Part shown: positions 18,143-58,157 of the stretch, one piece after another
How positions within the stretch are numbered: position 1 is the stretch's first letter
How the letters are laid out: each line of letters opens with the position of its first letter
Source: Microcoleus sp. AS-A8
GTDB taxonomy: Bacteria > Cyanobacteriota > Cyanobacteriia > Cyanobacteriales > Coleofasciculaceae
DNA length: 64,000 nt
Direction of reading: 5' to 3'
NCBI GenBank assembly: GCA_039962225.1
Contig: JAMPKV010000027.1
Location: 1-64,000, forward strand
The notes under the pieces: model-generated
The model's input: the letters and a program-made list of their open reading frames with translations, nothing else
Databases searched by the model: none
Told to the model about the DNA's origin: nothing
Made by a program: the position numbers and the translations under genes

Positions 18143-18193
18143 ACAGCGGAATTTATTCCGCAAGAACATGATACAATAATTAACAATAAGAAG

Positions 18194-38956: not shown

Positions 38957-38974
38957 AGAGCTTATGTACTCGTG

Positions 38975-39351: not shown

Positions 39352-41253
39352 ATGGAATTAGCAGAAATATCGCCGGCTCAAGATGCCGAAACTTCTCAAA
39401 CAGACCAAGAACAGCCACCCACTCAGGAACACAAAATCCTGATTGAGCTGATTGAAGACCTGGATGAAAAACGGGAGGTAATGCGTAAGATTGAGGCGAT
39501 TGAGGAGATTCTCCAAGCTGCTGACGAACTCAAGCAAGAGAAAATCCAACAGTGGGCAGACCGACTAGAAAAGCATCCTAGAACGATAACGCGGTGGTTA
39601 GAGAAGGTTGAGAAGGAGGGTTTAGCTGCAATAGCTAGAACGACTCGATCTGATGCAGGTCAACTCAAAGGCTGTAAGCGCTGGAAGCATAGTGTTGAGT
39701 ACTGGATAGAGTTCATCACCAAGACTTATAAGCAGGCTAAAAAAGCAGGTCTAGGCATGACCCCAAACCTTGTCTATAACCAAGTCAAGGGACATGCTGA
39801 ACTGGAGTTAGGGTTGAAAGACGGTGAATATCCTTCGCATATGTTCGTTTACAAGGTCTTAGACCCGCACATCGAAAAGAAAAAGCGAAAGGTTCGGAAT
39901 CCAGGGCAAGGACCAGGACTCATCGTCAAAACAACTGATGGCGATATCGTCGTTACACGTAGCAATCAAGTTTGGCAAACTGACCATACCAAGTTAGATA
40001 ACTTACTGGTAGACGCCAATGGGGAGCTAATCAATTGTGCTTGGATTACCTCAGTCATCGATACCTTCTCAGGTTGTGTAATGGGCTATCACATGGGCTT
40101 TGAATCTCCAGGTTCCCATGAAGTTGCCTTAGCACTCCGACATGCCATTTTGCCGAAACATTACGGTGAAGAGTACCAACTCCGAGAAAAGTGGGACGTT
40201 TGTGGACTACCTGAGTATATTGTCACTGATAGAGCCAAGGAATTTAAGTCGGCACATCTAAGACACATTGCTGCCGATTTAGACTTTAAAATGCGCCTTC
40301 GTCTCTACACTGAGCAAGGTGGAGTGGTAGAGCGATTATTTTTAGGACTGAAAACCGAATTTGCCTCACTGGTACTGGGTTTTAAGGGAGGTTCCTTGAA
40401 GGAGCGCCCAAAGAATCCAGAGAAGAAGGCTTGTGTTGTCTACGAGGAGTATGAGAGAAGATTAGTGCGGCATTTTGTCGATCACCACAATTACCATTTT
40501 TATCCCAAAGTCCGAAAAGACCAGGAGAAAACACCTCGTCAAGAACGATGGTGGGTAGGCTTAATTGGTGGAAAGCTAAGAATGCCTAACCATGAGCGAG
40601 AACTCGATATCTGTTTAATGAAGGAGGCAAAGCGAAAAGTTCAAGAGCGTGGAAGCATAGAGTTTGTAGGGCTAGTCTATACAGCTAGTTTGAGCAGGGA
40701 TGAAGAGGGTTATTGGCGATACGACAAGGCAGCGAATTTCCTAAAGGATTACGAAGGCTACCAGGTTACTCTTAGATACAATCCGAGCAATATCGTTTAC
40801 ATTCTCGCCTACACGCGGGAGAAAAGCGGTCAACCCTCGAAGTATCTGGGCACTATCAGGGCTAGGGATTTGGAGGAGGAGCGGTTGTCTTTGAAGGAGT
40901 GGGAGGATAGGAAGAAAAAGATTCGTGATGAAGGTAAAGCGATCGATCAGTCCTCAATACTGGCACAGCAACGGGATTTGTACACCTCTTCGATTGAGCA
41001 AGCAAAAACTGTCAAAGGACGGCGAAAGTCTGAACAACGTCGCATTACAAGTAAGTCCACTCATTCCAAGATTGTGGAGTTACATCCAGAGGATTCTTCA
41101 AAAGGCAAAAAGAAGGGAAAAACTGTTACCGAAGCGATCGCCTCCTCACCCTCTGAGGGTGTAGAGTCTGTATATGAACAAACTGAAATGCCAGTCAAGC
41201 CTGCGCTGTTTGTAGTTCCTGACTGGGATGAGTTCATGGAAGACAACTGGTAA
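39352..41253 (+). CDS. tnsB: TnsB transposase
   Basis: DDE-family transposase that binds the element ends and joins them to target DNA. The 633 residues include an N-terminal coiled and HTH region (about 30-110, with HPRTITRWLEKVEKEGL). The catalytic core follows: first Asp in WQTDHTKLD (D211), second in YIVTDRAKEF (D293), Glu in GGVVERLFLGLKTEF (E327). A beta-barrel, a long basic helical tail (about 490-570) and the acidic C-terminus PDWDEFMEDNW follow; this terminal peptide is the usual TnsC-contact hook. It is slightly longer than the Scytonema V-K TnsB (about 584). ATG 39352 follows 100 bases after the end repeats. Confidence 0.95.
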   Translation: MELAEISPAQDAETSQTDQEQPPTQEHKILIELIEDLDEKREVMRKIEAIEEILQAADELKQEKIQQWADRLEKHPRTITRWLEKVEKEGLAAIARTTRSDAGQLKGCKRWKHSVEYWIEFITKTYKQAKKAGLGMTPNLVYNQVKGHAELELGLKDGEYPSHMFVYKVLDPHIEKKKRKVRNPGQGPGLIVKTTDGDIVVTRSNQVWQTDHTKLDNLLVDANGELINCAWITSVIDTFSGCVMGYHMGFESPGSHEVALALRHAILPKHYGEEYQLREKWDVCGLPEYIVTDRAKEFKSAHLRHIAADLDFKMRLRLYTEQGGVVERLFLGLKTEFASLVLGFKGGSLKERPKNPEKKACVVYEEYERRLVRHFVDHHNYHFYPKVRKDQEKTPRQERWWVGLIGGKLRMPNHERELDICLMKEAKRKVQERGSIEFVGLVYTASLSRDEEGYWRYDKAANFLKDYEGYQVTLRYNPSNIVYILAYTREKSGQPSKYLGTIRARDLEEERLSLKEWEDRKKKIRDEGKAIDQSSILAQQRDLYTSSIEQAKTVKGRRKSEQRRITSKSTHSKIVELHPEDSSKGKKKGKTVTEAIASSPSEGVESVYEQTEMPVKPALFVVPDWDEFMEDNW

Positions 41254-41259: not shown

Positions 41260-42231
41260 ATGAGCAAATCCAACGCAGCCATCCAGCCACCGGAGGAGGA
41301 ACCACGCCACTCGCCCCAGCAAAAAGTCGATGCTGAAGGGGCTGGCAATACTCAGGCGAATGTAGCTATCCAGCAGCCTGGGCAGCAACCAAGTCGATCG
41401 CCTGAACAACAAGCCGAGGTTGAGCGAATTGGTCGGATTGAGACGTATGTAGGAGTGCAACGAGATCAGGATTTATTTGACCGCCTGGATTACTGGCGTG
41501 ACCTCAAAATCTGTGCCCGTGTCACTACCTTTGATCGGTTGGGTTTATCAAAAGCGTTAGATTACTACACGAAGAAGCGTATAAAGCGTCGAGGTGATTT
41601 TTTACAGCTTCCTGCCCCAGTTGCGTATATTGAGATGGAACAACATGGCAGCCCTACCGATTTATTTCTCCTGATTCTGGAGTTTCTTTCCAATCCTTTT
41701 GATTGTAGACCCCTACGAGATTTGCGTGCGCGGACATGGGGAACCCTTAAAGGGTATGGGGTCAAAATATTGATTGTCAATCAGGCAGAGTTATTATCAT
41801 TTGCAGCTTTTAATGAGCTTGTAAGAATTTCGGAAAAACTGAAGATTTCGGTGATTTTGACAGGTCCTCCCTACTTAAACGATATTCTCGATCCAAACTC
41901 TAATAAAAAGAAAAGATACATCAATATACATAATACATTTTTGAAGTATCACCCGTTTAATCTACTGTCTCAGGATGATACAGCGACTGTAATCGGAGAG
42001 TGGGAAAAATCAGGGTTAAAGTGGACGAAGCCATTGAAATTGGACTCGAATGCTCAGATCGTTGCGCTGCTGCACGAGGCTTCTCAAGGTCAGCTCAGAC
42101 CCTTATATGAACATCTACGTGAGATTGCTATTTGGAGGCTTGACCATCCTAAGGCTCAAATTAACCCTCAAAATATATCCCAAGCATTAGGCATTCAATT
42201 TCAACCGATATCCAAACTTAAACAGGTTTAA
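41260..42231 (+). CDS. tnsC: TnsC-like AAA+ protein lacking Walker A and Walker B residues
   Basis: The position, 6 bases after tnsB, and colinear alignment over about 90-310 identify TnsC, the ATP-dependent filament that links Cas12k/TniQ to TnsB. In active V-K TnsC the P-loop reads GESRTGKT. At the matching place here is TTFDRLGLS (after KICARV), with no Gly-Lys-Thr. Walker B, normally LIIDEAD, is LIVNQAE, so both acidic residues are replaced by amides. The sensor-like strand VILTGPP replaces VLVGTDR. The first 60 residues are a Pro/Gln-rich extension with an internal repeat (AIQPPEEEPRHSPQQ and AIQQPGQQPSRSPEQQ). The frame is fully open over 323 codons, so this is not simple decay. Confidence 0.85.
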   Translation: MSKSNAAIQPPEEEPRHSPQQKVDAEGAGNTQANVAIQQPGQQPSRSPEQQAEVERIGRIETYVGVQRDQDLFDRLDYWRDLKICARVTTFDRLGLSKALDYYTKKRIKRRGDFLQLPAPVAYIEMEQHGSPTDLFLLILEFLSNPFDCRPLRDLRARTWGTLKGYGVKILIVNQAELLSFAAFNELVRISEKLKISVILTGPPYLNDILDPNSNKKKRYINIHNTFLKYHPFNLLSQDDTATVIGEWEKSGLKWTKPLKLDSNAQIVALLHEASQGQLRPLYEHLREIAIWRLDHPKAQINPQNISQALGIQFQPISKLKQV

Positions 42232-43981: not shown

Positions 43982-46202
43982 ATGTCTCGCAATGAAGCGA
44001 ATACTCGAAAAGATTTAATCGATCCAGCGCTAGTGAAAGCGGGATGGAATCTAGATAAGGAGAAAAACCAGGTCGGAATTGAAGTTCCGGTAGATGGGTA
44101 CAATGCAGAGCTTTGGAATGGTGTTACGGATTATTGTCTCTATCGTGCTAACGGTGATGTAATCGCCGTTGTTGAGGCAAAACGACAGAGTTTCGAGCCA
44201 CAGATTGCTCAGACGCAGGTTGAGTATTACGTCAAGGAAATCGAGAAGCATCAGAGTTTTCGTCCATTTGCCTTTATGACCAATGGGCAGGAGATTTATT
44301 TTTGGGATGTGGGGAATACGGCTAAGCGGCAAGTGGCTGGCTTTTTCTCGCTAGACGATTTGGAGAATTTGCTTTACATTCGCCAGAACAAAATTTCGTT
44401 GATGAACGTGTCGGTTAATCTTCAGATTGCGGGACGGGTGTATCAGCAGGAGGCGATTCGACAAGTTTGTGAAGTATTTGATGAAGGAAAGCGGCGTGCT
44501 TTGTTGGTGATGGCGACGGGAACGGGGAAAACTCGCACCGCCATGTCAATCGTTGACCTGTTTTTGAGAGCGAACCAAACCCGAAAGGTGTTGTTTGTCG
44601 CAGATCGGAATAATTTGGTCGATCAAGCGTTGATGGATGGTTTTGAGGCTCATATCCCTAATGAACCTTGCGATCGCATCACAACCAATAACATTGATAA
44701 GACGAAACGACTCTATGTAGTAACAGATAAAACGCTGAGGAACTGCTTTAAACAGTTCACTCCTGCCTTTATTTGACCTGATTATTTTTGATGAGGTGCA
44801 TCGGTCAATCTTTAACCTCTTCCAAGAGGTGATGGACTACTTTGACGGACGGATGATTGGATTGACGGCTACCCCAGCGGGATTTGTTAATCGCAACACC
44901 TTCAACACCTTTCACTGCTTTGACCGTATCCCGACCTCTGATTACCCCTACAGTCAAGCGGTTAAAGAAAAGTACCTGGTTGACTTTAGACTGTATAAGG
45001 CTCAGACGAACTTGCAACGCGAGGGGATTCAAGGGGCAAGAATGAGCCAAGCCGATCGTAACGCCCTAATCGAGCAGGGGATTGACCCGGATGACGTTGA
45101 TTATTCTGGCTCAGAGTTAGAGAAAAAGGTTAGCAATGCAGATACCCTACGCAAGCAATGGGAAGAAATTATGGAGGTCTGCTATAAGGATGAGTCGGGG
45201 CAGTTACCGGGAAAAACAATCGTATTTGCTCTGAGTCAGTCTCACGCTTTGCGCCTGTGTAAGGTGTTTGAAAAACTATATCCTCAGTATTCCGACTTGG
45301 TGCGAGTCGTTACGCATAAAACGGAGTACAAAGGTAAGTTAACCAACCAGTTCAAAACTCAGAATATGCCTCGAATTGCCATCTCGGTGGATATGCTGGA
45401 CACCGGAGTGGATGTGCCAGAGGTGGTGAATCTGGTGTTTATGAAGCCAGTGTACTCCTACATTAAGCTGTGGCAGATGATTGGGCGGGGAACCCGCAGC
45501 CAGAAGACCTGCAAGCATTTAGAGTGGTTGCCTGAGCGCAGCAAGAAGGACTTTCGGATTATCGACTTCTGGGACAATGATTTTGAGGTCGAGCCTCAAG
45601 AAGATATAGCTCAGTCCCTGCCAATACTTCAGCGAATCTTTAACACGAGAGTGCAACTGCTGAAATCGTATCTGGGCGAGCAGGAATCAGAGGACTGTCA
45701 ACGGGTGATTGCTGACCTGCGATCGCAGATTGCTCAGATTCCAATTGACTCGTTTACAGTCAAAAAGCAGTTGAATGAGGTTGAACAGGCTTTGTCGGAT
45801 TCCTTCTGGAGTTACATCACCAAAGACAAACTCAAGTTTCTCAGCGTGAAAGTTGCCCCGTTGTTGAGGTTTATCCCAGAAGTCGATATGGCAGCAGCGA
45901 CCTTCACGGGTAAAGTGGAACGGTTGAAGCTTGAGATTCTGAGCGATGGGGCAAAACCGGAGACACTGGAATCAATTGCTAATGATGTTAGCCGTTTGCC
46001 TGATTTTGTACATCAAGACCCTCAACGGCAAGCAGCAGTAGAGTTGTGCCTATCGAAAAAGCTACAGACGGCGACAGCACAGGAGTTGAGTCAGGTGATT
46101 GCTTCCTTAGCTGACCAGATGAAGTATCGACGGGAGTGGATGAATTGCTGGCGTTTATCGACCAGTTGGCAGCATGATGGGCTGGTTCAGCAATCCTTCT
46201 AG
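43982..46202 (+). pseudogene. hsdR: Type I restriction enzyme R subunit, interrupted by a one-base frameshift
   Basis: An HsdR translocase-endonuclease split in two frames: 43982-44776 (264 codons) and a continuation through 46202. The N-terminal nuclease domain shows the PD-ExK pattern (YNAELWNGVTDYCLYRANGDVIAVVEAKRQ) and the helicase P-loop LLVMATGTGKTRTAM. At 44761-44776 an extra A in CCTTTATTTGACC creates TGA. Without it the protein reads continuously into FDLIIFDEVHRSIF, the DExH motif, then LTATPAGF and later MLDTGVDVPE and QMIGRGTRSQ. The slip site ATT TGA C resembles the RF2 (prfB) +1 site. Either a mutation, a sequencing error, or a programmed shift is possible; mutation or error is likeliest. 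Confidence 0.85.
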
Positions 46203-46268
46203 ATAGCAAGCTTTGAGTTATCGCCAAAGCTGTTCCTTCATTTCAGTTTCAGATAAAAAGGTTTGAAA

Positions 46269-48047
46269 ATGCTCACTGACCCCGACTTAAAATCAAAAGT
46301 TGACCAAATCTGGGACAAGCTCTGGACTGGGGGCTTGTCCAATCCAATGGATGCGATCGAGCAGTTTTCCTTTTTGCTGTTCCTGAAGCGGTTGGACGAG
46401 AGTGAAGACGACCGACAACGACAGGCAAGACTGCGAAACCAAGATTATAAGCCCCTTGTGCCACCAGAAATCCGCTGGCGGGAATGGACTAACAAAGAGG
46501 CGAAAGATGCCCTGGAGTATGTAAGAACTAAGGTTTTTCCCTGGTTGAAGGAAATGGGGAATGAGGGCAGTTCTTTTAAGCAGTACATGCAGGGTGCTGA
46601 GTTCAAAATCAATAATCCACGCTTGTTGATTGAAGTCTGCAACGCGATCGCAGCACTGAAAATCTCCGAACAGAATCAGGATGTTCAGGGCGATTTGTAC
46701 GAGTACTTGCTGTCAAAGCTGAGTATTGCGGGGCGTAACGGGCAGTTTCGCACGCCGCGCCACATTATCCGGATGATGGTGGAGATGAGGGAACCTAAGC
46801 CAAGGGACAGAATTGCGGATTTGGCAGCGGGAACCTGCGGCTTTCTGGTGAATGCCTATGAGTACATTTTAGAAACCCACACCAGCCCGGATATTTTGTA
46901 CGACGACAAGGGGCAAAAGCAGTTAATCGGCGATTTGCTTTCTCCTGAGCAAGGTGAGTTTCTCCAAAAGGAAGCGTTTACTGCCTATGACAACGATTCC
47001 GGCATGACCATGTTACGCATCGGCTCGATGAACCTGATGCTACACGGAATCGAGCATCCCCGGTTCTTTTACATGGATACCCTCTCGAAAGAATTTACCG
47101 ATAAGAAAAGCTATGATTTGGTGCTGATGAATCCGCCCTTTAAGGGAAAAATCGCGGAGAAAGTTGTTGAGGGGAAACCCGAAGACAAATCTGCTAATGG
47201 GAAAAGAGCCAAGCAGTCTGCTAAGGGTAAATTAGACCTGGGTCTAGAGTTGCCAACTAACTGCACGAAGTCAGAACTGCTATTTTTGCACCTGATTTTG
47301 CGAACGCTGGATATGGGCGGACGCTGTGCGGTGATTGTACCGGATGGGGTGCTATTTGGTTCGAGCAAGCAACACCAGGAGATTCGTCATAAGATTGTTG
47401 AAGAAAATCGCCTGGATGGAGTGGTGTCAATGCCATCTGGGGTGTTTCAGCCTTATGCGGGAGTATCGACGGCAGTGTTGTTCTTTACTCGTGGCGATAC
47501 GACGAATAAGATTTGGTTCTATGACATGGAACACGATGGGTTTTCCCTGGATCAAAAGCGGCAACCTGTAGCGGAGAATGATATCCCGGATATTCTCACC
47601 TGTTGGAAGAATCGGTTTAATCCTGATTTCACGACGCAAAGAGCGGAACGCTTGAGTGAGTTAAAATCTGAAATTGCGCCGATGAAGGCTGAACGGTTGA
47701 AGCTACTCAAGGAAATCAATCGCCTGACGTTTGAGAATGCGATCGCACCCGCCGATGATGAGCCGACCCGTGTCGCTTTGGAAGCGGATAGGCAACGACT
47801 GGCACAACTGCACGAGCAAATGGCACCCCTGCAAGCGGAAATTAATCAATTGAATCGGCAGTTTTGGGTGACAAAGGCGCAGGTGAAGGCGAATAAATAT
47901 GACCTTTCAGCGAGTCGTTACCGTCAGATTGAGCAGGATGAGCCTTATTATGAGTCGCCACAGGTGACGATGGAGAGGTTGTTGAAGTTAGAGCATGTTA
48001 TGGCGATGGAAGTAAAAGAACTGATGCTCTACATAGAATCCAAGTGA
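46269..48047 (+). CDS. hsdM: Type I restriction-modification methyltransferase (M) subunit
   Basis: An N6-adenine methyltransferase. The frame is open from TTG 46263; ATG 46269 (MLTDPDLKSKVDQIWDKLW) is the family start. An N-terminal helical domain (about 1-150) precedes the S-adenosylmethionine motif IADLAAGTCGFLVNAYEYI near 180, with PxxG replaced by AAGTCG as in the family. The catalytic NPPF is in YDLVLMNPPFKGKI near 285. A charged insert (about 300-330, rich in Lys, Glu and Ser) follows NPPF. The C-terminal coiled region (about 460-530) is the HsdS contact. The gene lies 60 bases after hsdR and 13 before hsdS, one operon. Confidence 0.95.
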   Translation: MLTDPDLKSKVDQIWDKLWTGGLSNPMDAIEQFSFLLFLKRLDESEDDRQRQARLRNQDYKPLVPPEIRWREWTNKEAKDALEYVRTKVFPWLKEMGNEGSSFKQYMQGAEFKINNPRLLIEVCNAIAALKISEQNQDVQGDLYEYLLSKLSIAGRNGQFRTPRHIIRMMVEMREPKPRDRIADLAAGTCGFLVNAYEYILETHTSPDILYDDKGQKQLIGDLLSPEQGEFLQKEAFTAYDNDSGMTMLRIGSMNLMLHGIEHPRFFYMDTLSKEFTDKKSYDLVLMNPPFKGKIAEKVVEGKPEDKSANGKRAKQSAKGKLDLGLELPTNCTKSELLFLHLILRTLDMGGRCAVIVPDGVLFGSSKQHQEIRHKIVEENRLDGVVSMPSGVFQPYAGVSTAVLFFTRGDTTNKIWFYDMEHDGFSLDQKRQPVAENDIPDILTCWKNRFNPDFTTQRAERLSELKSEIAPMKAERLKLLKEINRLTFENAIAPADDEPTRVALEADRQRLAQLHEQMAPLQAEINQLNRQFWVTKAQVKANKYDLSASRYRQIEQDEPYYESPQVTMERLLKLEHVMAMEVKELMLYIESK

Positions 48048-48060
48048 AGTTGTTTGCAGC

Positions 48061-49458
48061 ATGATGATAACTGAAGGGAAGAAATTGCCTAATGGTTGGC
48101 GTTGGGTAACGCTGGCAGAGGTGTGTCGCGATATCTCTGATGGCACCCATTTCACTCCCACTTATGTGTCGGAAGGTATTCCATTTCTTTCAGTCAAAGA
48201 TGTCCGAGAGACAGGTATCTCTTTCGATGACTGTCGCTTTATCACTGAGAAACAACACCGGGAACTTTGTAAAAGGTGCAAACCAGAACGAGGAGATGTT
48301 CTTTACACAAAAGTCGGGACAACAGGCATTGCCAAGGCTATAGATATTGAGCGAGAGTTTAGCATCTTTGTAAGTGTAGCTCTCCTTAAACTCCGTCCAG
48401 ATGTTATACCCGAATATATGGAGAGAGTGCTTAATGCACCTATTTGTCGCGTTCAAGCTGCCGAGCTAACACAAGGAGCAGCAAATCGCAATCTGGTCAT
48501 CCAAGATATAAAGCGAATTGTAATTCCCCTGCCGTCGTTAGCAGAACAAAAGCGGATTGCTGCGATCGCACAAAAAGCCGACAGACTCCGAGGCACCCGA
48601 CGCTACGCCCTACAACTCAGCGACACCTACCTGCAATCCGTCTTCTTGGAGATGTTCGGCGACCCCATCATTAATTCGATGGGATGGGACAGAGTAACAC
48701 TTTCAGATATAAAAACTGATTGTATATATGGAACTTCAACAAAATGTTATCCTGAACCGAATGGCTTACCAGTGCTTCGTATTCCAAATATATTAGGTGA
48801 CGAGATAGACATAAGTAACCTTAAGTATGCCAAACTATCATCAAAAGAAATAGAGCAGTTATCACTTCGCGAAGGTGATTTACTTTTTGTACGGACAAAT
48901 GGCAACCTTGATTATGTTGGACGCTCTGCTGTCTTTAATTTGAACGATTCATATTTATTCGCTTCATACTTAATACGAGCTAGGCTGAATTTTAAAAAAG
49001 TTAATCCCTGGTTTGTATCAGCCTATTTACGAACATCTGTAGGGCGGCAAGTAATGTCACCATTTATTCGCACTACTGCTGGTCAATTCAATATTAGTGT
49101 TGAAGGACTTAAACAGATTGTTCTTCCACTCCCACCCCTTCCTCTCCAAGAAAAATTTGCCCAAATTGTCCAGAAATTTGAACGCCTCCGCACCCAACAA
49201 CGGGAAGCCGAACGCCAAGCAGAGCATTTATTTCAAACCCTGCTGCATCGTGCCTTTCGGGGTGAACTGACTCCTCAAGGCTTCAATGATGAGCCTGCAT
49301 CCGTCTTATTAGAAGAGATTGGCGCAGAACAGACAAAAGCCGAAGCGGAAGCCAAAGCCGCTACGCAGGCGATGGGTGATGCTGCTGAGTATCTTGGCTC
49401 GAAAGCCAAACAGCAAGACAAAGAATTTATCCAGCTAAAGCTACCAGGAATAGAGTAA
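48061..49458 (+). CDS. hsdS: Type I restriction-modification specificity (S) subunit
   Basis: Defines the bipartite DNA target for HsdM and HsdR. The 465 residues contain two target-recognition domains. TRD1 spans about 10-165 (LPNGWRWVTLAEVCRDISDGTHFTP to IPLPSLAEQKRIAAIAQ) and TRD2 about 205-370 (WDRVTLSDIKTDCIYGT to LPLPPLPLQEKFAQIVQKFERL). Each is followed by a conserved helical spacer. The terminal helix is extended (PASVLLEEIGAEQTKAEAEAKAATQ). Either ATG at 48061 or 48064 could start it. TRD2 is clearly more A+T rich at the DNA level than TRD1 (48700-49080), suggesting recombinational exchange of that half. Confidence 0.93.
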   Translation: MMITEGKKLPNGWRWVTLAEVCRDISDGTHFTPTYVSEGIPFLSVKDVRETGISFDDCRFITEKQHRELCKRCKPERGDVLYTKVGTTGIAKAIDIEREFSIFVSVALLKLRPDVIPEYMERVLNAPICRVQAAELTQGAANRNLVIQDIKRIVIPLPSLAEQKRIAAIAQKADRLRGTRRYALQLSDTYLQSVFLEMFGDPIINSMGWDRVTLSDIKTDCIYGTSTKCYPEPNGLPVLRIPNILGDEIDISNLKYAKLSSKEIEQLSLREGDLLFVRTNGNLDYVGRSAVFNLNDSYLFASYLIRARLNFKKVNPWFVSAYLRTSVGRQVMSPFIRTTAGQFNISVEGLKQIVLPLPPLPLQEKFAQIVQKFERLRTQQREAERQAEHLFQTLLHRAFRGELTPQGFNDEPASVLLEEIGAEQTKAEAEAKAATQAMGDAAEYLGSKAKQQDKEFIQLKLPGIE

Positions 49459-49598
49459 GGCAATGAAGTGCTAACGCTCTGAACTCGAAAATAGCTTCCC
49501 TTTTGCAGAAGGAACCAGCACTCAACCAGAGGCTAAAACTAGAATGAGAGAAGGCAATCTTTGCTGCCTGGAGTGTCTACCACCTATTTTTCAATTGA

Positions 49599-51491
49599 AT
49601 GGATGTAGAAACGTTATTACAACGTCTAGACATCGGAGAAGACCAAGATATTGAGTTCAAGTCTGCCGATGGAGGATTACCAAAGGATTTGTGGGAAACG
49701 GTATCCGCCTTTGCTAATACAGATGGAGGCTATATTGTACTCGGTGTCAGCGAGAGTAAGGGCAGACTTGTAATCTCTGGGGTACGCAACCCCAATGGCG
49801 CACAGAAAAACTTCTGGGATATTCATAACAACCCACAAAAGCTCAATGCCCCAATCTGTTCCAACTCTAATGTGCAAGTTTCAAAGGTTGATGGACACAG
49901 CCTAATCACTATTTGGGTACCCAGAGCTGCACGTACCCAGCGACCTGTGTATATCGACCATAATCCCATGACTGGCACCTACAAGCGTAATTATGAGGGG
50001 GACTACCGCTGCACTTCAGAGGAAGTGCGGCAGATGCTACGGGATGCCAGTGATAACCCTCAAGACCTTCAGATTTTAGAGGGCTTTGACCTTGCTGATC
50101 TCGATCCAGAAACACTAAAATCATTTCGCCAGCGGTTTAGCTCTAGGGAACCCGATCACCCTTGGCTGGCACTAGATGATCGGGAGCTGCTCTGTCGGCT
50201 AGGTGGTTGGCGTCGCGATCGCAGCACAGGTACAGAAGGACTAACACTAGCTGGTTTGCTCATGTTTGGTCGTGAGCGTAGTCTTCTGGATGGTCTTCCT
50301 CACTACCAACTTGATTACCAGGAGCGATTTTCTGACGATCCAGAGACACGATGGACTTATCGCCTGACGCTCGATGGAAGATGGGAGCCAAATCTTTATA
50401 ACTTCTACTATCGGGTATATGGTCGTCTAGTTAATGATTTAGATGTCCCATTTCAACTTGACAAAGACGCTGTGCGCCGGGGTGAAACCCATGTGCATGA
50501 GGCACTGCGCGAAGCTTTGGTCAATACTCTAATCCATGCCGACCATCAATCTACACGTCCCATCGGAGTTGTTAAACTCTCAGACGGCTTTTTATTCTCT
50601 AATCCCGGTCGTTTGAGAATCCCTCTTCAGCGTCTTTATGAAGGTGGTGTTAGCGATGCTCGTAACCCCAACCTGCAAAAGATGTTTCAAATGTTGGGTT
50701 TAGGAGAGAAGGCAGGCTCTGGTTTTCAGAAAATCCTCCGTGCTTGGAGGGAGCAGCAATGGCTGATTCCCTTGGTTTCAGAAAAACTAGACCTAGAGGT
50801 GACATCAGTTGCTTTACCAATGGCAAGTTTCATTCCCGAAGATGTTGAAAGGGAATTAAAGGAGATAGTGGGGGATAACTACTGTAATTTGACAGAGCTA
50901 GACCGAACCGTCTTGATGCTAGCGCACCGCTTTGGGGAGATTAATAACATCGGTATTCAGCGTTACAGACATGAACACCCCAGAGAAATCGGTGAATGCC
51001 TTAAGCGTCTAGTGAACAAGGGTTGGCTTGAACAATTTGGTCGTGCTCGCGGCACCTACTATACTCTCCCCAGCCAGGGTCAATCAGACTTGCTTTCACT
51101 GTTCCCCAGCTCCGAACATTACGAGCCAAGCTCCGAACATTACGAGCCAAGCTCCGAACATTACGAGCCAAGCTCCGAACATTACAAACGTTTGCAAGAA
51201 ATTGCAGCTCCCGTCCGTCAGAAAGGTCGCGTAAACAAGAGCTTAGTAGAGAAAGTCATTTTAGAACTCTGCTCCGAACATTACCTATCACTCCGAACAT
51301 TAGCTGACCTGCTGGATCGCGAACCGGATAGCATCCGAAACCACTATGTAAATCCCTTGCTGTCACAAGGCTTGCTAGAACTTAAATATCCTGCTCACCC
51401 GAATCACCCTTATCAGGCATATAGAACCAAATCCCTTCCAGATAAGAGACTTGAGCGAGTTTCTGACACTTCGCAAATACCCCAAACCTAA
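49599..51491 (+). CDS. AlbA_2 / divergent AAA-4 domain ATP-binding protein
   Basis: A 630-residue member of the family often annotated as RecG-like or Schlafen/AlbA_2 putative DNA-binding protein. The N-terminal AlbA_2 domain includes EDQDIEFKSADGGLPKDLWETVSAFANTDGGYIVLGV. A GHKL-like ATPase follows with HVHEALREALVNTLIHADHQS, FSNPGRLRIP, NPNLQKMFQMLGLGEKAGSGFQKI. A C-terminal winged-helix region ends the protein. Between residues about 503 and 530 lie four SSEHYEP heptads, encoded by 21-bp tandem repeats. Such genes accompany type I R-M loci and may regulate or assist them; this is contextual inference. Confidence 0.85.
   Translation: MDVETLLQRLDIGEDQDIEFKSADGGLPKDLWETVSAFANTDGGYIVLGVSESKGRLVISGVRNPNGAQKNFWDIHNNPQKLNAPICSNSNVQVSKVDGHSLITIWVPRAARTQRPVYIDHNPMTGTYKRNYEGDYRCTSEEVRQMLRDASDNPQDLQILEGFDLADLDPETLKSFRQRFSSREPDHPWLALDDRELLCRLGGWRRDRSTGTEGLTLAGLLMFGRERSLLDGLPHYQLDYQERFSDDPETRWTYRLTLDGRWEPNLYNFYYRVYGRLVNDLDVPFQLDKDAVRRGETHVHEALREALVNTLIHADHQSTRPIGVVKLSDGFLFSNPGRLRIPLQRLYEGGVSDARNPNLQKMFQMLGLGEKAGSGFQKILRAWREQQWLIPLVSEKLDLEVTSVALPMASFIPEDVERELKEIVGDNYCNLTELDRTVLMLAHRFGEINNIGIQRYRHEHPREIGECLKRLVNKGWLEQFGRARGTYYTLPSQGQSDLLSLFPSSEHYEPSSEHYEPSSEHYEPSSEHYKRLQEIAAPVRQKGRVNKSLVEKVILELCSEHYLSLRTLADLLDREPDSIRNHYVNPLLSQGLLELKYPAHPNHPYQAYRTKSLPDKRLERVSDTSQIPQT
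51108..51190 (+). repeat. Four 21-bp in-frame tandem repeats
   Basis: AGCTCCGAACATTACGAGCC-type units, 21 bp each, occur four times in a row (the fourth diverges at its end) and encode SSEHYEP heptads. A fifth CTCCGAACATTA lies at about 51270 and a sixth at about 51290. The exact copies suggest recent slippage and possible length variation without frame loss. Confidence 0.9.
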
Positions 51492-51505
51492 TAAGCTTGG
51501 TGCAG

Positions 51506-52021
51506 TTAGCGCGATTGCCTTTTTTGTTGTCTCCGCTTCAAATCCTCAGCCAGTCGAATATCCACCAGTTCCCCTTCCTCCCACGCTTCACCATCCGGTT
51601 TAACCAGCCGTTGTGCGAGTTTTTGGAGTTCTACGTCTGAAGCGCGATCACCTTCTAGCAACTCATTAATCCGTTCCACAGGCATTTCAACATCCGCCGC
51701 AAGTTTCCCAAGCACCCAGTCCTGGTTACTCAGCGTTTCTTCAATCAAAGACGCGATCGTCGGTACGACTAGCGGCGCAGTCGTTGAAGCTTCAGCTACT
51801 GATGATTCAGATGGTGCTGAGTCTTCCTCTTTGTGCTGCTTTTCGATCCAGTCTTGTATCGCTTCCTCTAAGCCTAGATTGATATCCCGACCCAAGCCCT
51901 TACAAATTCCCTTGAATTTTAGAGAAAGCGTCTTGGGGACAAAACCGCGCAACTCCTGGTAATTCGGAGATTTCCTCTTATCGACCACAAATAAGCTAAA
52001 CACGGGAGTTTCAGGCTTCAT
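51506..52021 (-). CDS. Putative RHH plus HTH DNA-binding regulator
   Basis: The frame is open to 52114, but the first 31 codons read through palindromic and repeated DNA; ATG 52021 (MKPETPVFSLFVVDKRKS) is a better start, giving about 171 residues. VPKTLSLKFKGICKGLGRDI then LGLEEAIQDWIEKQ has the strand-helix-helix look of Arc/CopG proteins. A C-terminal part, LGKLAADVEMPVERINELLEGDRASDVELQKLAQRL, looks like an XRE-type helix-turn-helix. V-K CASTs are known to encode repressors of cas12k (CvkR, MerR type); this could play that part, but its family assignment is inferred. It is the only minus-strand gene in the element. Confidence 0.55.
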   Translation of the reverse strand: MKPETPVFSLFVVDKRKSPNYQELRGFVPKTLSLKFKGICKGLGRDINLGLEEAIQDWIEKQHKEEDSAPSESSVAEASTTAPLVVPTIASLIEETLSNQDWVLGKLAADVEMPVERINELLEGDRASDVELQKLAQRLVKPDGEAWEEGELVDIRLAEDLKRRQQKRQSR

Positions 52022-52049
52022 TCTCGCACAAACTCGTAAGAACTCTGAT

Positions 52050-52098
52050 TTTAGCAATATTGCTATTATTGCTAATTTCGCGTATATCGCGTATTTTT
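52050..52098. promoter_or_regulatory. Operator-like palindrome and direct repeats upstream of the putative regulator
   Basis: TAGCAATATTGCTA at about 52052-52065 is a perfect 14-bp palindrome. It is followed by TTGCTA repeated at short spacing and by TCGCGTAT twice (about 52077-52094). The cluster lies in the divergent gap between the minus-strand regulator and the plus-strand genes that lead to cas12k, as expected for autoregulatory sites. Confidence 0.6.
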
Positions 52099-52429
52099 GA
52101 GCATATTCATTCAACCCCCACTAATCGTGATTCCTGACTTGTTCTTAATCAGTCTGGATGCACCGCCTCTATCAGTCTGCCTCCCTCCAAACTTTCCAGC
52201 CGACGCGGAAACGCCCCGGTTTCTGTATGGCGATCGCGTCAAGTGGAAACCTCTCTCTGACACAGACAACACTGATACAGGCGTCATAATTGGGCGCTTT
52301 TATGCCTTTGCCCACCATTGCCATCAGTGGTCATGGAAATACTTAGTTTTCCTCGATACCGACTCCTACAGTCGCTGTTTCTGTAGTGCTGATACCGCTT
52401 GGGAACAAGACCTCGAACCGCTAGATTGA
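52097..52429 (+). CDS. Small cyanobacterial hypothetical protein
   Basis: A 110-codon frame starting at TTG 52097, or from GTG about 52127 (VIPDLFLISL). The conserved part begins FLYGDRVKWKPLSDTDNTDTGVIIGRFYAFAHHCHQWSWKYLVFLD and ends ADTAWEQDLEPLD. I know this pattern from plasmid and mobile-element neighbourhoods of cyanobacteria, next to a small HTH gene as here. The GVIIGR core suggests a small beta-barrel (SH3-like), function unknown. The start is uncertain because its 5' part overlaps the operator-like region. Confidence 0.6.
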   Translation: MSIFIQPPLIVIPDLFLISLDAPPLSVCLPPNFPADAETPRFLYGDRVKWKPLSDTDNTDTGVIIGRFYAFAHHCHQWSWKYLVFLDTDSYSRCFCSADTAWEQDLEPLD

Positions 52430-52440
52430 GAAAAATCCCT

Positions 52441-52743
52441 ATGAGTAATCCCCGCTCCCTAGAACAACGCGAAGTAGAGTTGATTGCTCTGCTTTCTCAT
52501 ACCCAACTCGGAATCTCACCCCGAACCTTCCTAACCAAATGGGACGTTAATTACGAACAGCTTGCTGCTATCTGCCATTGCACCATCGGCACCGTAACTC
52601 GTTGGTTTGCCAGAGGAGAAAACTATCGGCGTCCTGGTACTTATCCTTGCCTCAAACTCAAACTGGCAGATTTGCTCTTAGAAAATTATCAAGACATTCC
52701 AGAAGAATGGTTTCAATCCATTTTTCCTCCTGAAAGTCAATAG
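52441..52743 (+). CDS. Small helix-turn-helix protein
   Basis: A 100-residue protein from ATG 52441 (MSNPRSLEQREVELIALLSH), 11 bases after the preceding stop; the frame open from 52399 adds no useful start. The HTH is YEQLAAICHCTIGTVTRWFARGENYRRP, a sequence type common in cyanobacterial plasmids and islands. The C-terminal helix is LKLKLADLLLENYQDIPEEWF. It forms a pair with the preceding gene and probably regulates it or the surrounding cargo. Confidence 0.75.
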   Translation: MSNPRSLEQREVELIALLSHTQLGISPRTFLTKWDVNYEQLAAICHCTIGTVTRWFARGENYRRPGTYPCLKLKLADLLLENYQDIPEEWFQSIFPPESQ

Positions 52744-52862
52744 TAAATTAACGAACCTTCATAAAAACCTATCCTGGGGCTAGGTTTTGCAGTTACAGCT
52801 AATCCGCTGGAAATGAAGCGTTTTATGGTTGGTAAAGACTGCAACCACTTCTGAGCTAGACG

Positions 52863-54707
52863 ATGAACTCGATTAGCACCTTTGACATCACCAAATACCC
52901 CCTACTTGATATCCTCAAAGACATCAAAACAGGCAGAATTCAACTCCCCGATTTCCAGCGAGATTGGGTTTGGGATGACTTAAGCGTGCGTCGGCTCTTA
53001 TCTAGCATTTCTCTGGCTTACCCCGTTGGTGCAGTTATGCTACTTCAGCAAGAAAACTCCCATGTCCGCTTCAAACCCCGCCCAGTCGATGGCGCGACTC
53101 TACAGCAACCACCTGCCCCCAACTTATTAATCCTAGACGGGCAACAGCGTTTAACCGCTCTATTCATGGTGCTGCTATCCGAGCAACCTGTCCTAGTTAA
53201 AAGCTCAAACAGCAATAAAATCAGCCGTCACTGGTACTACCTGGATATTGAAAAAGCGCTCGACTCTAACAAGGAGCGACTAGAAGCCATCGTTACCTTA
53301 CCTGAATCAAGAAGACTACGAACGTTTAGCGGTGAACTAATTGATGCTTCTACCCCACAACAAGAATTTTTAGCCAGACTGTTCCCCTTATCAAAAGTGT
53401 TCTCTTTCTCACAATGGAGAAGCGAGTATTCTCAGTTCTGGCAGTACGACAGCAAAAAACTGAAACTCATCGATACGTTTGAGCTAGAAGTCCTGAAAAA
53501 GTTTGAACATTATCAGATGCCTGTCATCCAACTCCGGGACTCTCTACCCAAAGCCGCCGTTTGCCAAGTGTTTGAGGACACCAACACCTGTGGGTGTGAC
53601 CTTAATTACTTCGACCTGATGAGTGCTAGCTACTGTACGGATAACTTTAGCTTGAGAGATGATTGGAAGCACAGAGAGGCTCATCTCAAGTCCTTCAAAG
53701 TACTACGCAACTTGAGAAACACGGATTTTCTGCAAGCGGTTACCTTAGTTGCCAGTTACACCCGTCGCACATCAGCCATCCGTGCGGGTGTGAATATCGA
53801 GAGAATACCCGCCATTAGTTGTCGGCGAACAGATATCCTGAAGCTGTCAACCGAGGAATATACTACTTGGGCAGACTCCGTCACCAAAGGGTTTGAGGAC
53901 GCCGCTCGATTCTTGTACAGCCAGAGAATCTTTGACGCTAATCACCTAGCCTACCCAATCCAATTAGTGGCTTTAGCCGCCATTTTGACCGTAGTGGGAG
54001 AACAAGCAGAAGGCGCACAGGTTCGTTCGAGATTAGGACATTGGCTGTGGGCCGGAATGCTGGGAGAAATGTATACCCGTGGGTCTGAGACACGAGTCAC
54101 CCATGATTTACTGGAAGTGCCAAGGTTTTTATCCGGCAGTTTAGTACCCACGACCCTTACTTTTGCTCATTTCTCGATACAACGACTGCTCAGTGTCAGG
54201 AAACGTTACGGTGCTTTGTACCAAGGTTTATCAGCTTTGTTGCGGCTCCAAGGGGCCATTGATTGGAGTACGGGGGAAGAAATTAATGACGTGCTTTATT
54301 TTGAACAACGGGTTGAGTCTCACCACATCTTTCCAGTATCTTGGTGTAAAAAGCGAGGCATTAAGCCGCAAAAATACAACAGTTTGGTCAACCGCACACC
54401 TCTGGCGGCAAAAACCAACAAAAAAATTGGTGGCAAAGCCCCTTCGGTTTACCTCAAACAGTTTGAGATGTCTGGGACATCACCCACTCGACTTGATGAG
54501 ATGTTACGCTCTCATGCGATTGACCCAATGATGCTGCGCTCTGACGATTTTGAGGGATTTTACGTGGCACGAATTGAAGCGTTAATGGAGTTAATCGCCC
54601 AGGCAATGGGTAAGCATTTCCCTGTTAAACCCTTTGAAGGGAATTGTTGGAAGTACGAAAACGGCCACCACCATATACTCGAACGAATCACACCCCTTAA
54701 TTATTAA
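52863..54707 (+). CDS. GmrSD-like (DUF262 plus HNH/DUF1524) nuclease
   Basis: A 614-residue protein of the GmrSD family, whose members cut modified phage DNA in an NTP-stimulated way. The DUF262 half starts YPLLDILKDIKTGRIQLPDFQRDWVWDD and has the ParB-like nucleotide motif LILDGQQRLTALF near 90. The C-terminal half has an HNH-like motif VESHHIFPVSWCKKRG, with the following NSLVNRTPLAAKTNKKIGG (DUF1524-like). Both signatures are intact. As cargo it adds a modification-dependent restriction activity to the classical R-M locus. It ends 76 bases before cas12k. Confidence 0.88.
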   Translation: MNSISTFDITKYPLLDILKDIKTGRIQLPDFQRDWVWDDLSVRRLLSSISLAYPVGAVMLLQQENSHVRFKPRPVDGATLQQPPAPNLLILDGQQRLTALFMVLLSEQPVLVKSSNSNKISRHWYYLDIEKALDSNKERLEAIVTLPESRRLRTFSGELIDASTPQQEFLARLFPLSKVFSFSQWRSEYSQFWQYDSKKLKLIDTFELEVLKKFEHYQMPVIQLRDSLPKAAVCQVFEDTNTCGCDLNYFDLMSASYCTDNFSLRDDWKHREAHLKSFKVLRNLRNTDFLQAVTLVASYTRRTSAIRAGVNIERIPAISCRRTDILKLSTEEYTTWADSVTKGFEDAARFLYSQRIFDANHLAYPIQLVALAAILTVVGEQAEGAQVRSRLGHWLWAGMLGEMYTRGSETRVTHDLLEVPRFLSGSLVPTTLTFAHFSIQRLLSVRKRYGALYQGLSALLRLQGAIDWSTGEEINDVLYFEQRVESHHIFPVSWCKKRGIKPQKYNSLVNRTPLAAKTNKKIGGKAPSVYLKQFEMSGTSPTRLDEMLRSHAIDPMMLRSDDFEGFYVARIEALMELIAQAMGKHFPVKPFEGNCWKYENGHHHILERITPLNY

Positions 54708-54783: not shown

Positions 54784-56970
54784 ATGAATATGTCAATGTA
54801 TACGATTCAATGCCGTCTTTCTGCCAGTGAACAGACACGTCGAGACTTTTGGCAATGGATGGAAAAATACACCCTTCTAGTGAATGAATTGCTCGAAAAG
54901 ATTGCTCAACATCTCCAGTTTCAGGAATGGCAGAAAAAGGGCGATATTTCTCGCGAAGCGGTACGAAAAATTCTCAATGCCCTCAAAGAGAATCCCCAAT
55001 ATTCAGGACTACCAAAACGGTTTTATACATCCGCTGAGTTAATCTCCTGTGACACCTATAAGTCTTGGTTAGCCTTACAGCAACAACGACAGCTTCGACT
55101 CCTGGGCAAGCAGCGTTGGTTAGAGGCAGTAGAAAGTGAATTGGAATTGTCAGCAACCACTGATTTTAATCCTGATGAGGTTCGTACTCAAGCTGGTGAA
55201 ATTCTGGAAAAGGCAATAGAGATGCTGAACAGGAACAGCAGTCAGCCGAGAAATCTCATAGGAATTTTGTTGAACATGCATGATGATACTGCCGAAGACC
55301 CTCTAAATCGTCGTGCGATTAATCATCTGCTCATTAATGAACTTCAAGTCAGCGAAGAAGAACCTAATCTCACGGCGCTTTCCGAGCGTCTAGACAAAAA
55401 AAGAGTACAAATTAAGCGACTTGAAGAGCAGCTAAAAAGCCGACTTCCAAAAGGAAGAGACCCAACCGGACAGCGATACTTACAGATTTTGGCTCACATC
55501 AGTACTCTTCCTGAATTGAGAGATGACCCCCAGAAGCTGGAAGCGGAACTAGATACACTGACTTTTCAAGAGCAACTGCCTCTGTTCAACGAATTACCTT
55601 ACCCAATTCTCTTTTATAGTTCGGGTGACTTGTATTGGTCTGTTCAGTCTCAAGATACATCCAATCCTTCTAACCCGGAAAATGGGATTCATTCAGAGTT
55701 ATTAAAGAGTAATAAGCCGCATTCTCCGCGACCCAAAGAAAGAATTTGCGTTAAATTCAAAGGAGCCGAACCCCAAAAAAACAAATCCGAGGAAGGCAAA
55801 AACTATACCTTTAAGATTCAGTGTGATCGTCGTCAGCTCCCCTTATTTCGACGGTTTCTGATTGATTATCAGACTTATACTCAATTGCCCACAGAAGAAC
55901 GTTTCTCTGAAGGACTCTTTGCTCTGCGCTCAGCCTGCCTAATTTGGCGTAAGGATGAAAGTGGACACAGGAGCAAAAAGAAAATAGGAGCAGACCAACC
56001 AGGAGACCAACTAGAGCCTTGGAATACTCATCGTCTTTATCTTCATTGCACTGTGAGCAGACCTCTGTTAACAGCCGAGGGAACCGAGCAAATACGAGCA
56101 GAAAAAAAACAGGCAATCATTAAAGAACTTAAAGGAAAAGAAAAGCTTGAACAGAAAGACTTGGATGAATTAGGACTAACTCAGCAACAGATTAGCTCCG
56201 TTAAACGCAAATGCTCCACATTAAACCGTCTGGAGAATCATTCACCCCCACCTCGGCCTCACACCGTACCTTATGAAGGGCAACCTGATATCTCAGTTGG
56301 AGTCAGTTTTAGTCGTCATCAACCTGTAGCAATTGCTGTTGTAGATATCGCCAAACAACAAGTTCTACAGTGCAAGAGTGCCAAGCAACTCTTGAACGGG
56401 GGAAAAGCCCAATTTATCTGGAGACATGGCTCGAAGGAACCGATGTTAAAAGATGGCATCGAAAAGCGGCATCCCAATGGCGGCAAGCTCTACATCAGGA
56501 AAAGAAAGCGCGTTCAAGGGAAACCCTATCGCCTGGTTCAGCAACTCCATCGACGACATCAACAGAATGCTCGACAAAGGGCTAAACAGCAGCAGCAAAA
56601 CTGTTATCGGGAGGACAACTCCGACTCCAATCTAGGACTCTACGTTGACCGACTCATCGCGGCTCAAATAGTCGAGCTGGCCCTGAAAAGTAAAGCAGGA
56701 ACCATTGCCATCCCCCAACTCAAGGGCATTCGTGAAAGCGTTGAGAGCGGCATTCGAGCGCAAGCACAGCGACTGTTCCCTAATGAGAAGGAACGCCAAA
56801 AAGAATATGCTTTGCATTATCGAGCCAGCTTCCATCGTTGGAGCTATGCAAGACTATGTGAGTGTATTAGAGAGTGCGCCAAAAGAGAGGGTATCGCCGT
56901 CGTCCAAAGGAAACAGTCCTCCCAAGGAGATTTGCAGCAAAAAGCAATAGCCATTGCTTTATCTTCCTAG
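54784..56970 (+). CDS. cas12k: Cas12k, RNA-guided target-binding effector
   Basis: A nuclease-dead class 2 effector directing V-K transposition. The protein aligns with Scytonema Cas12k from MYTIQCRLSASEQTRRDFWQWM through RLPKGRDPTGQRYLQIL, FSEGLFALRSACLIW and KRKCSTLNRLENHSP to the RuvC region. The first RuvC strand is ISVGVSFSRHQPVAIAVVD, without the catalytic Asp, as in active V-K elements. YASFHRWSYARL-like SFHRWSYARLCECI near the end is typical. At 728 residues it is about 90 longer than the usual 640. Extra segments lie near 290-330 (Asn/Pro/Ser/Lys rich) and near 545-590 (WRHGSKEPMLKDGIEKRHPNGG). It ends ALSS, some ten residues short of the usual C-terminus. Confidence 0.93.
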   Translation: MNMSMYTIQCRLSASEQTRRDFWQWMEKYTLLVNELLEKIAQHLQFQEWQKKGDISREAVRKILNALKENPQYSGLPKRFYTSAELISCDTYKSWLALQQQRQLRLLGKQRWLEAVESELELSATTDFNPDEVRTQAGEILEKAIEMLNRNSSQPRNLIGILLNMHDDTAEDPLNRRAINHLLINELQVSEEEPNLTALSERLDKKRVQIKRLEEQLKSRLPKGRDPTGQRYLQILAHISTLPELRDDPQKLEAELDTLTFQEQLPLFNELPYPILFYSSGDLYWSVQSQDTSNPSNPENGIHSELLKSNKPHSPRPKERICVKFKGAEPQKNKSEEGKNYTFKIQCDRRQLPLFRRFLIDYQTYTQLPTEERFSEGLFALRSACLIWRKDESGHRSKKKIGADQPGDQLEPWNTHRLYLHCTVSRPLLTAEGTEQIRAEKKQAIIKELKGKEKLEQKDLDELGLTQQQISSVKRKCSTLNRLENHSPPPRPHTVPYEGQPDISVGVSFSRHQPVAIAVVDIAKQQVLQCKSAKQLLNGGKAQFIWRHGSKEPMLKDGIEKRHPNGGKLYIRKRKRVQGKPYRLVQQLHRRHQQNARQRAKQQQQNCYREDNSDSNLGLYVDRLIAAQIVELALKSKAGTIAIPQLKGIRESVESGIRAQAQRLFPNEKERQKEYALHYRASFHRWSYARLCECIRECAKREGIAVVQRKQSSQGDLQQKAIAIALSS

Positions 56971-57024
56971 AAGACTGAAACTTGATGATTCTTTACATCA
57001 TCCAGCATTTGTACCTTGACAAGA

Positions 57025-57310
57025 TAATATTGATTCAATAGCGCGTCTCGTTCCTCGCGAACAGATGATAAGTGTAAGGGCAGTTTAATTGCTTTCCGCC
57101 CTTGGTAGTTGTCCGCTTCTCTCTGCGGAACTTGTCCGCAGATACGGTGCAGGGTCGCGCCTAGCATCAGAGGGCAATGTTTTTATAACAGTGGTTTAGA
57201 GCCTCTGGTTATAAGGATACAGGCTTACGTGTCGTGGCAGCTACCCCATCGCCTTCGAGCAAGAAGGAATCCTCCCTCATCTTTTTCTGACGGCTGAAAG
57301 CGGGGGCCAA
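57025..57310 (+). ncRNA. tracrRNA of the V-K system
   Basis: Lies between cas12k and the array. The start region (AATATTGATTCAATAGCGC, about 57027-57045) resembles the 5' end of the Scytonema tracrRNA (TTAATAGCGCCGC). Stem-forming GGTAGTTGTCCGC / GCGGAACTTG follows. The anti-repeat AATCCTCC is at 57268-57275 within GAAGGAATCCTCCCTC, and the region ends at CGGCTGAAAG with a GGGGGCC / GGGGTT-like hairpin near 57300-57320. TAATAT at 57025-57030 could be a -10 box. Ends are estimated from analogy, not mapped. Confidence 0.75.
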
Positions 57311-57474
57311 AACCCCAGAGAGCCGTCAAAACTTCAAAACCCTTATCTGATATTGATTTGAGGCTTTCACCGCAGTTAAATTTCTCCTTGGGAGAGAGCT
57401 GAAATGAACAATTTCAAATCAGCCGACAGTCAGGTATTTGTCAGCTTGTGTAGGTAAGGGTTTCAGCGGGCGCG

Positions 57475-57653
57475 GTTTCATTAACCCTCCCGCCTCTGGG
57501 TGGGTTGAAAGCTCCTCTATAATCAAGCTCAAGCTCTACTGAAAAAGTTTCATTAACCCTCCCGCCTCTGGGTGGGTTGAAAGCTCGTACTCTCCCTCAA
57601 AATAATCAGTAGACAGAGTTTCATTAACCCTCCCGCCTCTGGGTGGGTTGAAA
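57475..57653 (+). CRISPR. CRISPR array, three 36-bp repeats
   Basis: Exact 36-bp repeats start at 57475, 57547 and 57618. Each begins GTTTCATTAACCCTCC and ends GGGTGGGTTGAAA; the first two are followed by G (GAAAG). Spacers are 57511-57546 (36 nt) and 57583-57617 (35 nt), and both begin GCTC. A third spacer follows from 57654 to about 57688, leading into the truncated homing repeat. The repeat's CCTCCCGCC...GGGTGGG core is self-complementary. No spacer source was recognised in the window. Confidence 0.95.
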
Positions 57654-57688
57654 TACCCAGTTCATCAGTTGAAGTATAGATTCCGAGT

Positions 57689-57734
57689 TGGGACTTTAAA
57701 TACGGAGGATTGAAAGGCAGCAATACGGGATGCT
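57689..57734 (+). CRISPR. Truncated homing repeat-spacer targeting ffs
   Basis: A degenerate, shortened repeat (about 28 nt, ending ACGGAGGATTGAAAG at 57716) lies about 35 nt after the third array repeat. The next 18 nt, GCAGCAATACGGGATGCT (57717-57734), are identical to the minus strand at 58103-58086, inside the SRP RNA gene. Beyond 18 nt the two diverge. The match is preceded in the target by GTA, fitting the GTN PAM of Cas12k. This is the form of the delocalised guide used for chromosomal homing by V-K elements. Confidence 0.92.
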
Positions 57735-57904
57735 CACGATTGCTAATCTGAAGATAGACACGGGCTTGCCACTTTTTCTATGTCCTGGATCATCAACGCT
57801 CAGGCTCAATCGCTGTAATCCACCTATATAGTTTCTAAACTTCTGTTAGAACGTTAATCATCTCACCCGCGCTCAATTAGTGTACAAGTACTAAAAACAC
57901 CCCG

Positions 57905-58032
57905 GTTTTGGACATTAAGTGTTTAAAACTGTTTTTCCAGTAAAATCAAGTCGGCTATGAACCTGAAACGCCCAAGATGCGTAGTTTTGGACATTAATTG
58001 TTTAAAACTGACAAATAACTCTTTAATGGACA
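57905..58032. repeat. CAST cas12k-side end with TnsB-binding-like repeats
   Basis: GGACATTAAGTGTTTAAAAC at about 57910 and GGACATTAATTGTTTAAAAC at about 57989 sit inside 27-bp near-identical units (57905-57931 and 57984-58010), 79 bases apart. A third partial copy, GACAAATAACTCTTTAATGGACA-type, forms the terminus (58010-58032). Inverse copies are present at the other end of the element. Between the homing spacer and the first repeat (57735-57904) no gene is seen. Confidence 0.85.
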
Positions 58033-58059
58033 TCTTTAAAGTAAAAATATTCGTACAAA

Positions 58060-58157
58060 ATGACCCGGAGACTACGCCTGCCTCAAGCATCCCGTATTGC
58101 TGCTACCTTCCGGTCCTGACAAGATTTGGGCGTTGAAACCGCATAGTTCCAGGTCAT
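58060..58157 (-). ncRNA. ffs: Signal recognition particle RNA (small bacterial type)
   Basis: Read on the minus strand, the conserved domain IV is GTCAGGACCGGAAGGTAGCA followed by GCAATACGGGATG, with the GGAAGG loop that Ffh binds. ATGACCTGGA at the 5' end pairs with TCCGGGTCAT at the 3' end, fixing a length of about 98 nt. It is essential for membrane protein targeting. The CAST homing spacer matches the segment just after GGTA. The 3' end is 28 bases from the transposon end and the gene is intact. Confidence 0.95.

Follow-up and report, generated by a model that had tools for sequence, protein, structure and literature searches.

V-K CASTs are known to have an array-guided pathway to mobile DNA, and their insertion produces a 5-bp target-site duplication. 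CASTs of type I-F3b are found in Proteobacteria. The att sites of V-K elements are mostly tRNA genes (PMC11406308), and 46–82 nt separate the PAM from the left end of these elements, apart from a single case of 147 nt (PMC9938897). The gene ffs is described as the chromosomal att site of type I-F3b CASTs, for example AsCAST (PMC11406308, PMC12774636), in agreement with the initial annotation of the present locus, which had named ffs as a guide-selected site of type I-F3 elements. A V-K element at ffs is not reported in the literature searched, including the accessible text of PMC9938897, PMC10293859, PMC11656645 and PMC8649781; this search lay outside the main V-K att-site surveys and the supplementary tables, where a prior listing is possible.

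The window, by which we mean the whole 64,000-nucleotide stretch of DNA that was analysed, is cyanobacterial and holds an element of ~19 kb between the rbcLXS genes and ffs (Table 1). By its annotated features this element is a V-K CAST with the att-site anatomy of the guide-directed kind. Its Cas12k matches the profile NF038191 with 649.5 bits against a cut-off of 150, Pfam matches confirm the gene order tnsB, tnsC, tniQ, and both the array with its three repeats and the predicted tracr region lie downstream of cas12k. Among the element proteins searched, a set that leaves aside some small ORFs, no member of the TnsA families is present. The marks of type I-F3, Cascade genes and tnsA, are likewise absent from the proteins searched, and the effector is Cas12k. 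The genes cas12k, tnsB, tnsC and tniQ are all open reading frames. Two ORFs (43982–44776 and 44796–46202) make up the hsdR-like gene of the cargo, which is probably broken. Elsewhere in the window, two near-identical ORFs of 155 and 156 aa lie ~2 kb apart (13450–13917 and 15463–15933), and a TnpB-type ORF of 464 aa (Pfam OrfB_IS605 and Cas12f1-like_TNB) occupies 18101–19495.

Table 1. Features of the V-K CAST and its att site in the window.
Feature	Position	Strand	Basis or remark
Right end of element	38964..39200 (inner limit approximate)		Starts TGTACTCG; transposase-binding repeats; TGTAC start; rbcS 3' flank homologous to G417 up to this point
tnsB transposase	39352..41253	+	Pfam Mu-transpos_C above cut-off, rve slightly below
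tnsC AAA+ regulator	41260..42231	+	Pfam AAA_22, TniB
tniQ, 190 aa	42274..42846	+	Pfam TniQ
Cargo	43982..54707		Type I restriction-modification genes: hsdR-like in two ORFs, hsdM, hsdS
Further cargo	within 43982..54707		AlbA_2/RecG-like gene, GmrSD-like gene, small ORFs, one of which weakly matches HTH
cas12k, 728 aa, divergent early-branching type	54784..56970	+	NF038191, tree
Predicted tracrRNA	57005..57330 (extent inferred)	+	Placed after cas12k; complements the truncated repeat
Anti-repeat AATCCTCC	57268–57275		Within the predicted tracr region; 8/8 complementary to the truncated repeat
CRISPR array	57475..57654	+	Three repeats, two full spacers
Truncated repeat GGAGGATTGAAAG	57704..57716	+	Begins ~50 nt past the last full repeat
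Anchor (homing) spacer GCAGCAATACGGGATGCT	57717..57734	+	Matches ffs
Left end	57905..58057		Binding repeats at 57905–57931 and 57984–58010; outer boundary somewhere in 58047–58057
ffs, SRP RNA gene, att site	58059..58155	-	Rfam RF00169
Protospacer in ffs	58086..58103	-	PAM GTA at 58104–58106

The initial annotation had claimed an 18-nt identity between the truncated spacer and the adjoining ffs, a GTN PAM in front of it and, from this, a V-K element homing to ffs. The identity is exact. Spacer GCAGCAATACGGGATGCT (57717–57734) is an inverted match over 18 nt to ffs (58103–58086, minus strand), and the PAM, given by the three minus-strand bases 5' of the protospacer (58106–58104), is GTA. The gene itself scores 61.8 bits with RF00169, for which the gathering score is 40. 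In the genome of 7.75 Mb and 54 contigs the 18-mer has exactly two copies, guide and ffs, and the reversed-pattern control has 0; with no third exact copy, the objection that it might occur at many unrelated sites falls away for this genome. An ffs copy carried as cargo has no support, as the window's genome and G564, the genome of the second element described below, contain one ffs match each and the gene is located beyond the element's left end. The distance from PAM to left end is 46 nt with TGTACG at 58057 taken as terminus and ~55 nt if the ffs flank reaches 58048. Insertion had been expected 60–75 bp past the PAM and is found closer, inside the published range of 46–82 nt. Homing to ffs is supported by Cas12k, by the anatomy, by the guide match and by a second element in the family with an equal guide. 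On the sequence evidence, ffs is confirmed as the att site matched by the element's guide.

The second element, L138 (G564:C695), comes from a different genus within the family. It carries the identical 18-nt guide, protospacer and GTA PAM with ffs alongside, and its Cas12k is 72% identical to the Cas12k of the window. The distance between its PAM and the candidate end (TGTGTCC) is 58 nt, compared to 46 or ~55 nt in the window. A pattern of repeat end and ffs guide with three loose positions was scanned against the contigs of at least 3 kb from 84,980 species genomes, a collection that may not include the window's own genome. It returned a single record, JAIUYC010000013.1 of the MAG Coleofasciculus sp. 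S288. The locus taken from this record (L214) is contained letter for letter within G564:C695 and is therefore the same element as L138, not a third case. Upstream of cas12k, the window and S288 elements have in common a GmrSD-like gene with 83% identity, from which it follows that the two elements are kin. Within the family, ffs was matched in 19 of 20 genomes, and at the 18 readable sites left-end repeats within the ~100 nt past ffs are seen by eye in the window and L138 only. G417, from the same genus as the window, has an ffs without CAST that is identical to the window ffs in 97 of 97 nt. The ffs guide is known from two elements only.

For a wider comparison, cas12k matches were taken from two overlapping draws, one of 386 genomes across the phylum (35 matched) and one of 388 genomes across the order (117 matched). 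Among the matches listed, 120 regions downstream of cas12k together with the window form a survey set of 121 loci, which leaves out many fragments that lack the C-terminus or lie at contig ends and in which some regions end early. An anchor was called where the 17 nt following a repeat end RTTGAAA[GAT] match the opposite strand within 700 nt, with at most three mismatches, the first six positions exact and, for all inexact matches, a PAM that begins with G. This rule yields anchors in 77 of the 121 loci and in 0/121 with reversed sequences, and the guide–target arrangement is therefore not a matter of chance. The match is exact in 44 of the anchors, contains one mismatch in 23 and two in 10. 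The PAM is GTN at 75/77 anchors, although the rule imposed G alone. Where a TGTAC end is visible 40–110 nt from the PAM (54/77 loci), the distances range from 42 to 86 nt, with 46 nt for the window. Looser rules give a candidate, never to ffs, in 13 of the 44 loci without a rule anchor (L055, L118, L119, L121, L123, L126, L132, L133, L173, L176, L104, L163 and L181), so 77 is a lower bound.

Most anchors (68/77) fall in tRNA genes called by ARAGORN. Nine do not: two match ffs (window and L138), two the 3' end of mutS (L063 and L146), and five match other targets. By eye, the L174 target resembles an intron-bearing tRNA-Leu and the L178 target the 3' half of a tRNA; for L110, L114 and L142 (G600:C6, a weak anchor with two mismatches) no target gene is named. 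Scanning cas12k loci for ffs and comparing their spacers had been suggested as a check, with ffs-adjoining V-K elements that lack a matching spacer as the result that would speak against homing. Every one of the 121 regions was examined, ffs is beside cas12k in the window and L138 alone, and both of these carry the guide, so the counterexample was absent where it could be looked for. A search for degenerate ffs anchors with up to three mismatches in 388 class genomes without G564 returned the window as well as a single site in G121, which has three mismatches and an altered repeat end and is probably a chance match.

The survey also provides observations on other att sites. The V-K elements L063 and L146, whose anchors target the mutS 3' end, sit directly past the stop codon of this gene, and the target piece in L063 is Pfam MutS_V. 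Under the looser rules the mutS 3' end is probably the anchor target in L104 too. It is a recurrent non-tRNA V-K att site. The window's own genome contributes two more of the 121 loci, the V-K CASTs L057 (G000:C4:85000-97300) and L127 (G000:C10:3700-15000) with anchors to tRNA-Pro and tRNA-Val. Together with the ffs element, this makes a minimum of three V-K elements in one genome, with three att sites between them.

The expectation of the initial annotation was that the ffs target hardly varies, so that one guide could serve many hosts. For near matches this is borne out, since the 21-position ffs pattern GGNAGCAGCAATACGGGATGC is found within two mismatches in 140 of the 148 genomes of the order, but exact matches occur in 78/148 only, counted by eye as pattern matches and not as individually confirmed ffs genes. 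In 73 of these 78 the position N is T (by eye), hence a GTA PAM. Among the ffs genes of the family, read by eye against the 17-mer, 9/18 are exact, 8/18 share one common G-to-A change and 1/18 has C-to-A. The target had also been said to cover domain IV. In the SRP RNA structure this applies only to the first few bases, which lie in the domain IV loop; the remaining bases belong to the helix, on its 3' strand.

The relationship of the ffs guide to other guides can be followed in the Cas12k tree. A Cas12k ORF was recognised in 110/121 loci, and the 91 that are long enough, with L171 added, make up the 92 rows of a quick tree in which long branches were flagged, L169 and L053 among them. The window clusters with L138 and L171 in a clade with support of 100, which L053 and L055 join (98, 99). 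All five fall in a group of ten with support of 94 that stands on one side of the midpoint root and includes some of the long flagged branches. Compared to the nearest 27 sequences outside its clade, the window Cas12k is 34–39% identical. L171 (G564:C805), a Cas12k piece from the same MAG as L138, has an exact guide to tRNA-Cys, and L055 has a guide to tRNA-Cys with two mismatches; no anchor guide was found for L053. Because L171 and L055 both use tRNA-Cys, this gene is likely to have been the att site first, with ffs adopted later. We infer from this the direction of the change, with the ffs guide probably replacing a tRNA-Cys guide in a small early-branching clade. Over the shared C-terminal part, Cas12k identity is 79% between L138 and L171, 78% between L138 and the window and 73% between the window and L171. 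Such roughly equal distances would be compatible with an origin of the ffs guide once as well as twice.

Pairing between repeat and anti-repeat bears on the predicted function of the guide. The truncated repeat (GGAGGATT) is a perfect complement of AATCCTCC in the predicted tracr region, and the array repeats of the window pair with AATCCTCC with a mismatch. For L138 the best complement of the truncated repeat is 7/8. Perfect pairing within the own locus is found in 37/77 loci versus 3.4% with cores swapped between loci. In the three clade members, with energies computed on stretches chosen by eye, the predicted duplex of the truncated repeat is stronger than that of the array repeat, by a small gain of 0.6 kcal/mol in L138, by 1.6 kcal/mol in the window and by 5.8 kcal/mol in L171.

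We consider it very probable that the element is a V-K CAST that keeps a short crRNA for ffs and inserts past this gene, with a guide that probably replaced one for tRNA-Cys. The short crRNA would derive from the truncated repeat and the spacer outside the array that matches ffs. Together with Cas12k and the tracrRNA it would bind ffs at the GTA PAM, and TniQ, TnsC and TnsB would insert the element ~46–58 bp onward, directly past the ffs 3' end. As insertion would take place past the 3' end, the RNA gene would stay whole, and in the window ffs is intact. The array would supply a second pathway, to mobile DNA; neither of its two spacers (2/2) matched plasmids. Expression, transposition and guide-driven insertion of this particular element are what we infer from the sequence.

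The flanks suggest that insertion was not the only event at this locus. The target-site duplication is absent, with the 5 bp GCTTA at the right end and AAATG at the left end. At TGTACT, where the rbcS homology with G417 stops, the right end adjoins the rbcS flank, and the locus therefore seems to have undergone a rearrangement, either during insertion or later. The gene order of G062 is a phasin-like gene (named by eye), 2.4 kb, ffs, YciI, LigT, rca and rbcL. In the window's genome the phasin-like gene is located on contig C6 and ffs on C27; by eye, no transposon end is found in the 1.5 kb past the gene on C6. A simple insertion between rbcS and ffs is not evident, and the flanks are ordered otherwise in G417 and G062. 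We give even chances to the alternative that the guide is real while the present place was reached by rearrangement, either an inversion or an adjacent deletion by replicative transposition. This alternative accounts for the right flank only. As the left end is still at a V-K distance from the PAM in ffs, this side has the look of the original junction, and a rearrangement is compatible with guide-directed homing to ffs. A target-site duplication is the mark of a single undisturbed insertion and not of family membership. Its absence is probably due to rearrangement, and the right flank is explained most simply by a subsequent inversion or adjacent deletion. The window's genome, G417 and G062 differ from one another by rearrangements around ffs, rbcLXS and rca (38950–38970 and 58048–58171; L213, L215), and one breakpoint is the transposon right end.

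The missing duplication would also fit an ffs match that is a fossil, left in an immobile element with a decayed left terminus. The left-end boundary was placed by comparison with L138, L171 and the G417 ffs. The left terminus is unlike the L171 pattern, in which the distance between the terminal sequence and the first binding repeat is shorter than that of TGTACG here. It may lie anywhere from 58047 to 58057, given that the G417 ffs flank resembles the window up to 58048. A fossil nevertheless appears unlikely, given that cas12k, tnsB, tnsC and tniQ are open, the 18-nt guide is exact and the S288 element has an equal guide. Chance similarity or a repeat artefact, of negligible probability, is ruled out by the uniqueness of the 18-mer, by the reversed control (0/121) and by an exact 18-nt match within 400 bp in proper orientation, with PAM and spacing, that is found again in a second genus.

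For the V-K CAST homing to ffs, the mechanism is the known one; of interest are the convergence on ffs and a guide change that is visible within a clade. This suggests that for V-K homing conservation, PAM and a harmless insertion point may matter more than tRNA identity, and that unrelated CRISPR-guided transposons converge on ffs. We lean towards regarding ffs as a convergent RNA-guided safe site for Cas12k and I-F3b Cascade, reached in this Cas12k clade from tRNA-Cys by exchange of a 17–18-nt spacer, with V-K att choice extending beyond tRNA genes to the end of any conserved gene that offers a GTN PAM, such as ffs and mutS. Guides to ffs and tRNA-Cys in close relatives represent a natural set for studying a change of home via one short guide, and new insertion tools might be developed from the early-branching Cas12k.

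With AnCAST, ShCAST and AcCAST the element shares tnsB-tnsC-tniQ, cargo, cas12k, tracr, array and truncated repeat as well as the anchor spacer of ~17 nt and the GTN PAM. It differs from V-K elements of this type in its att site, which is ffs and not a tRNA gene, and in its early-branching Cas12k. The mutS elements L063, L146 and probably L104 likewise direct a V-K anchor guide to a conserved non-tRNA gene, but their target is protein-coding (MutS domain V), and L063 and L146 belong to a different Cas12k clade. The I-F3b elements at ffs, represented by AsCAST, resemble the window element in retaining a guide for a chromosomal att site and in the gene chosen, ffs. In contrast to the window element, they employ Cascade instead of Cas12k, have a published PAM of TC and represent a separate co-option.
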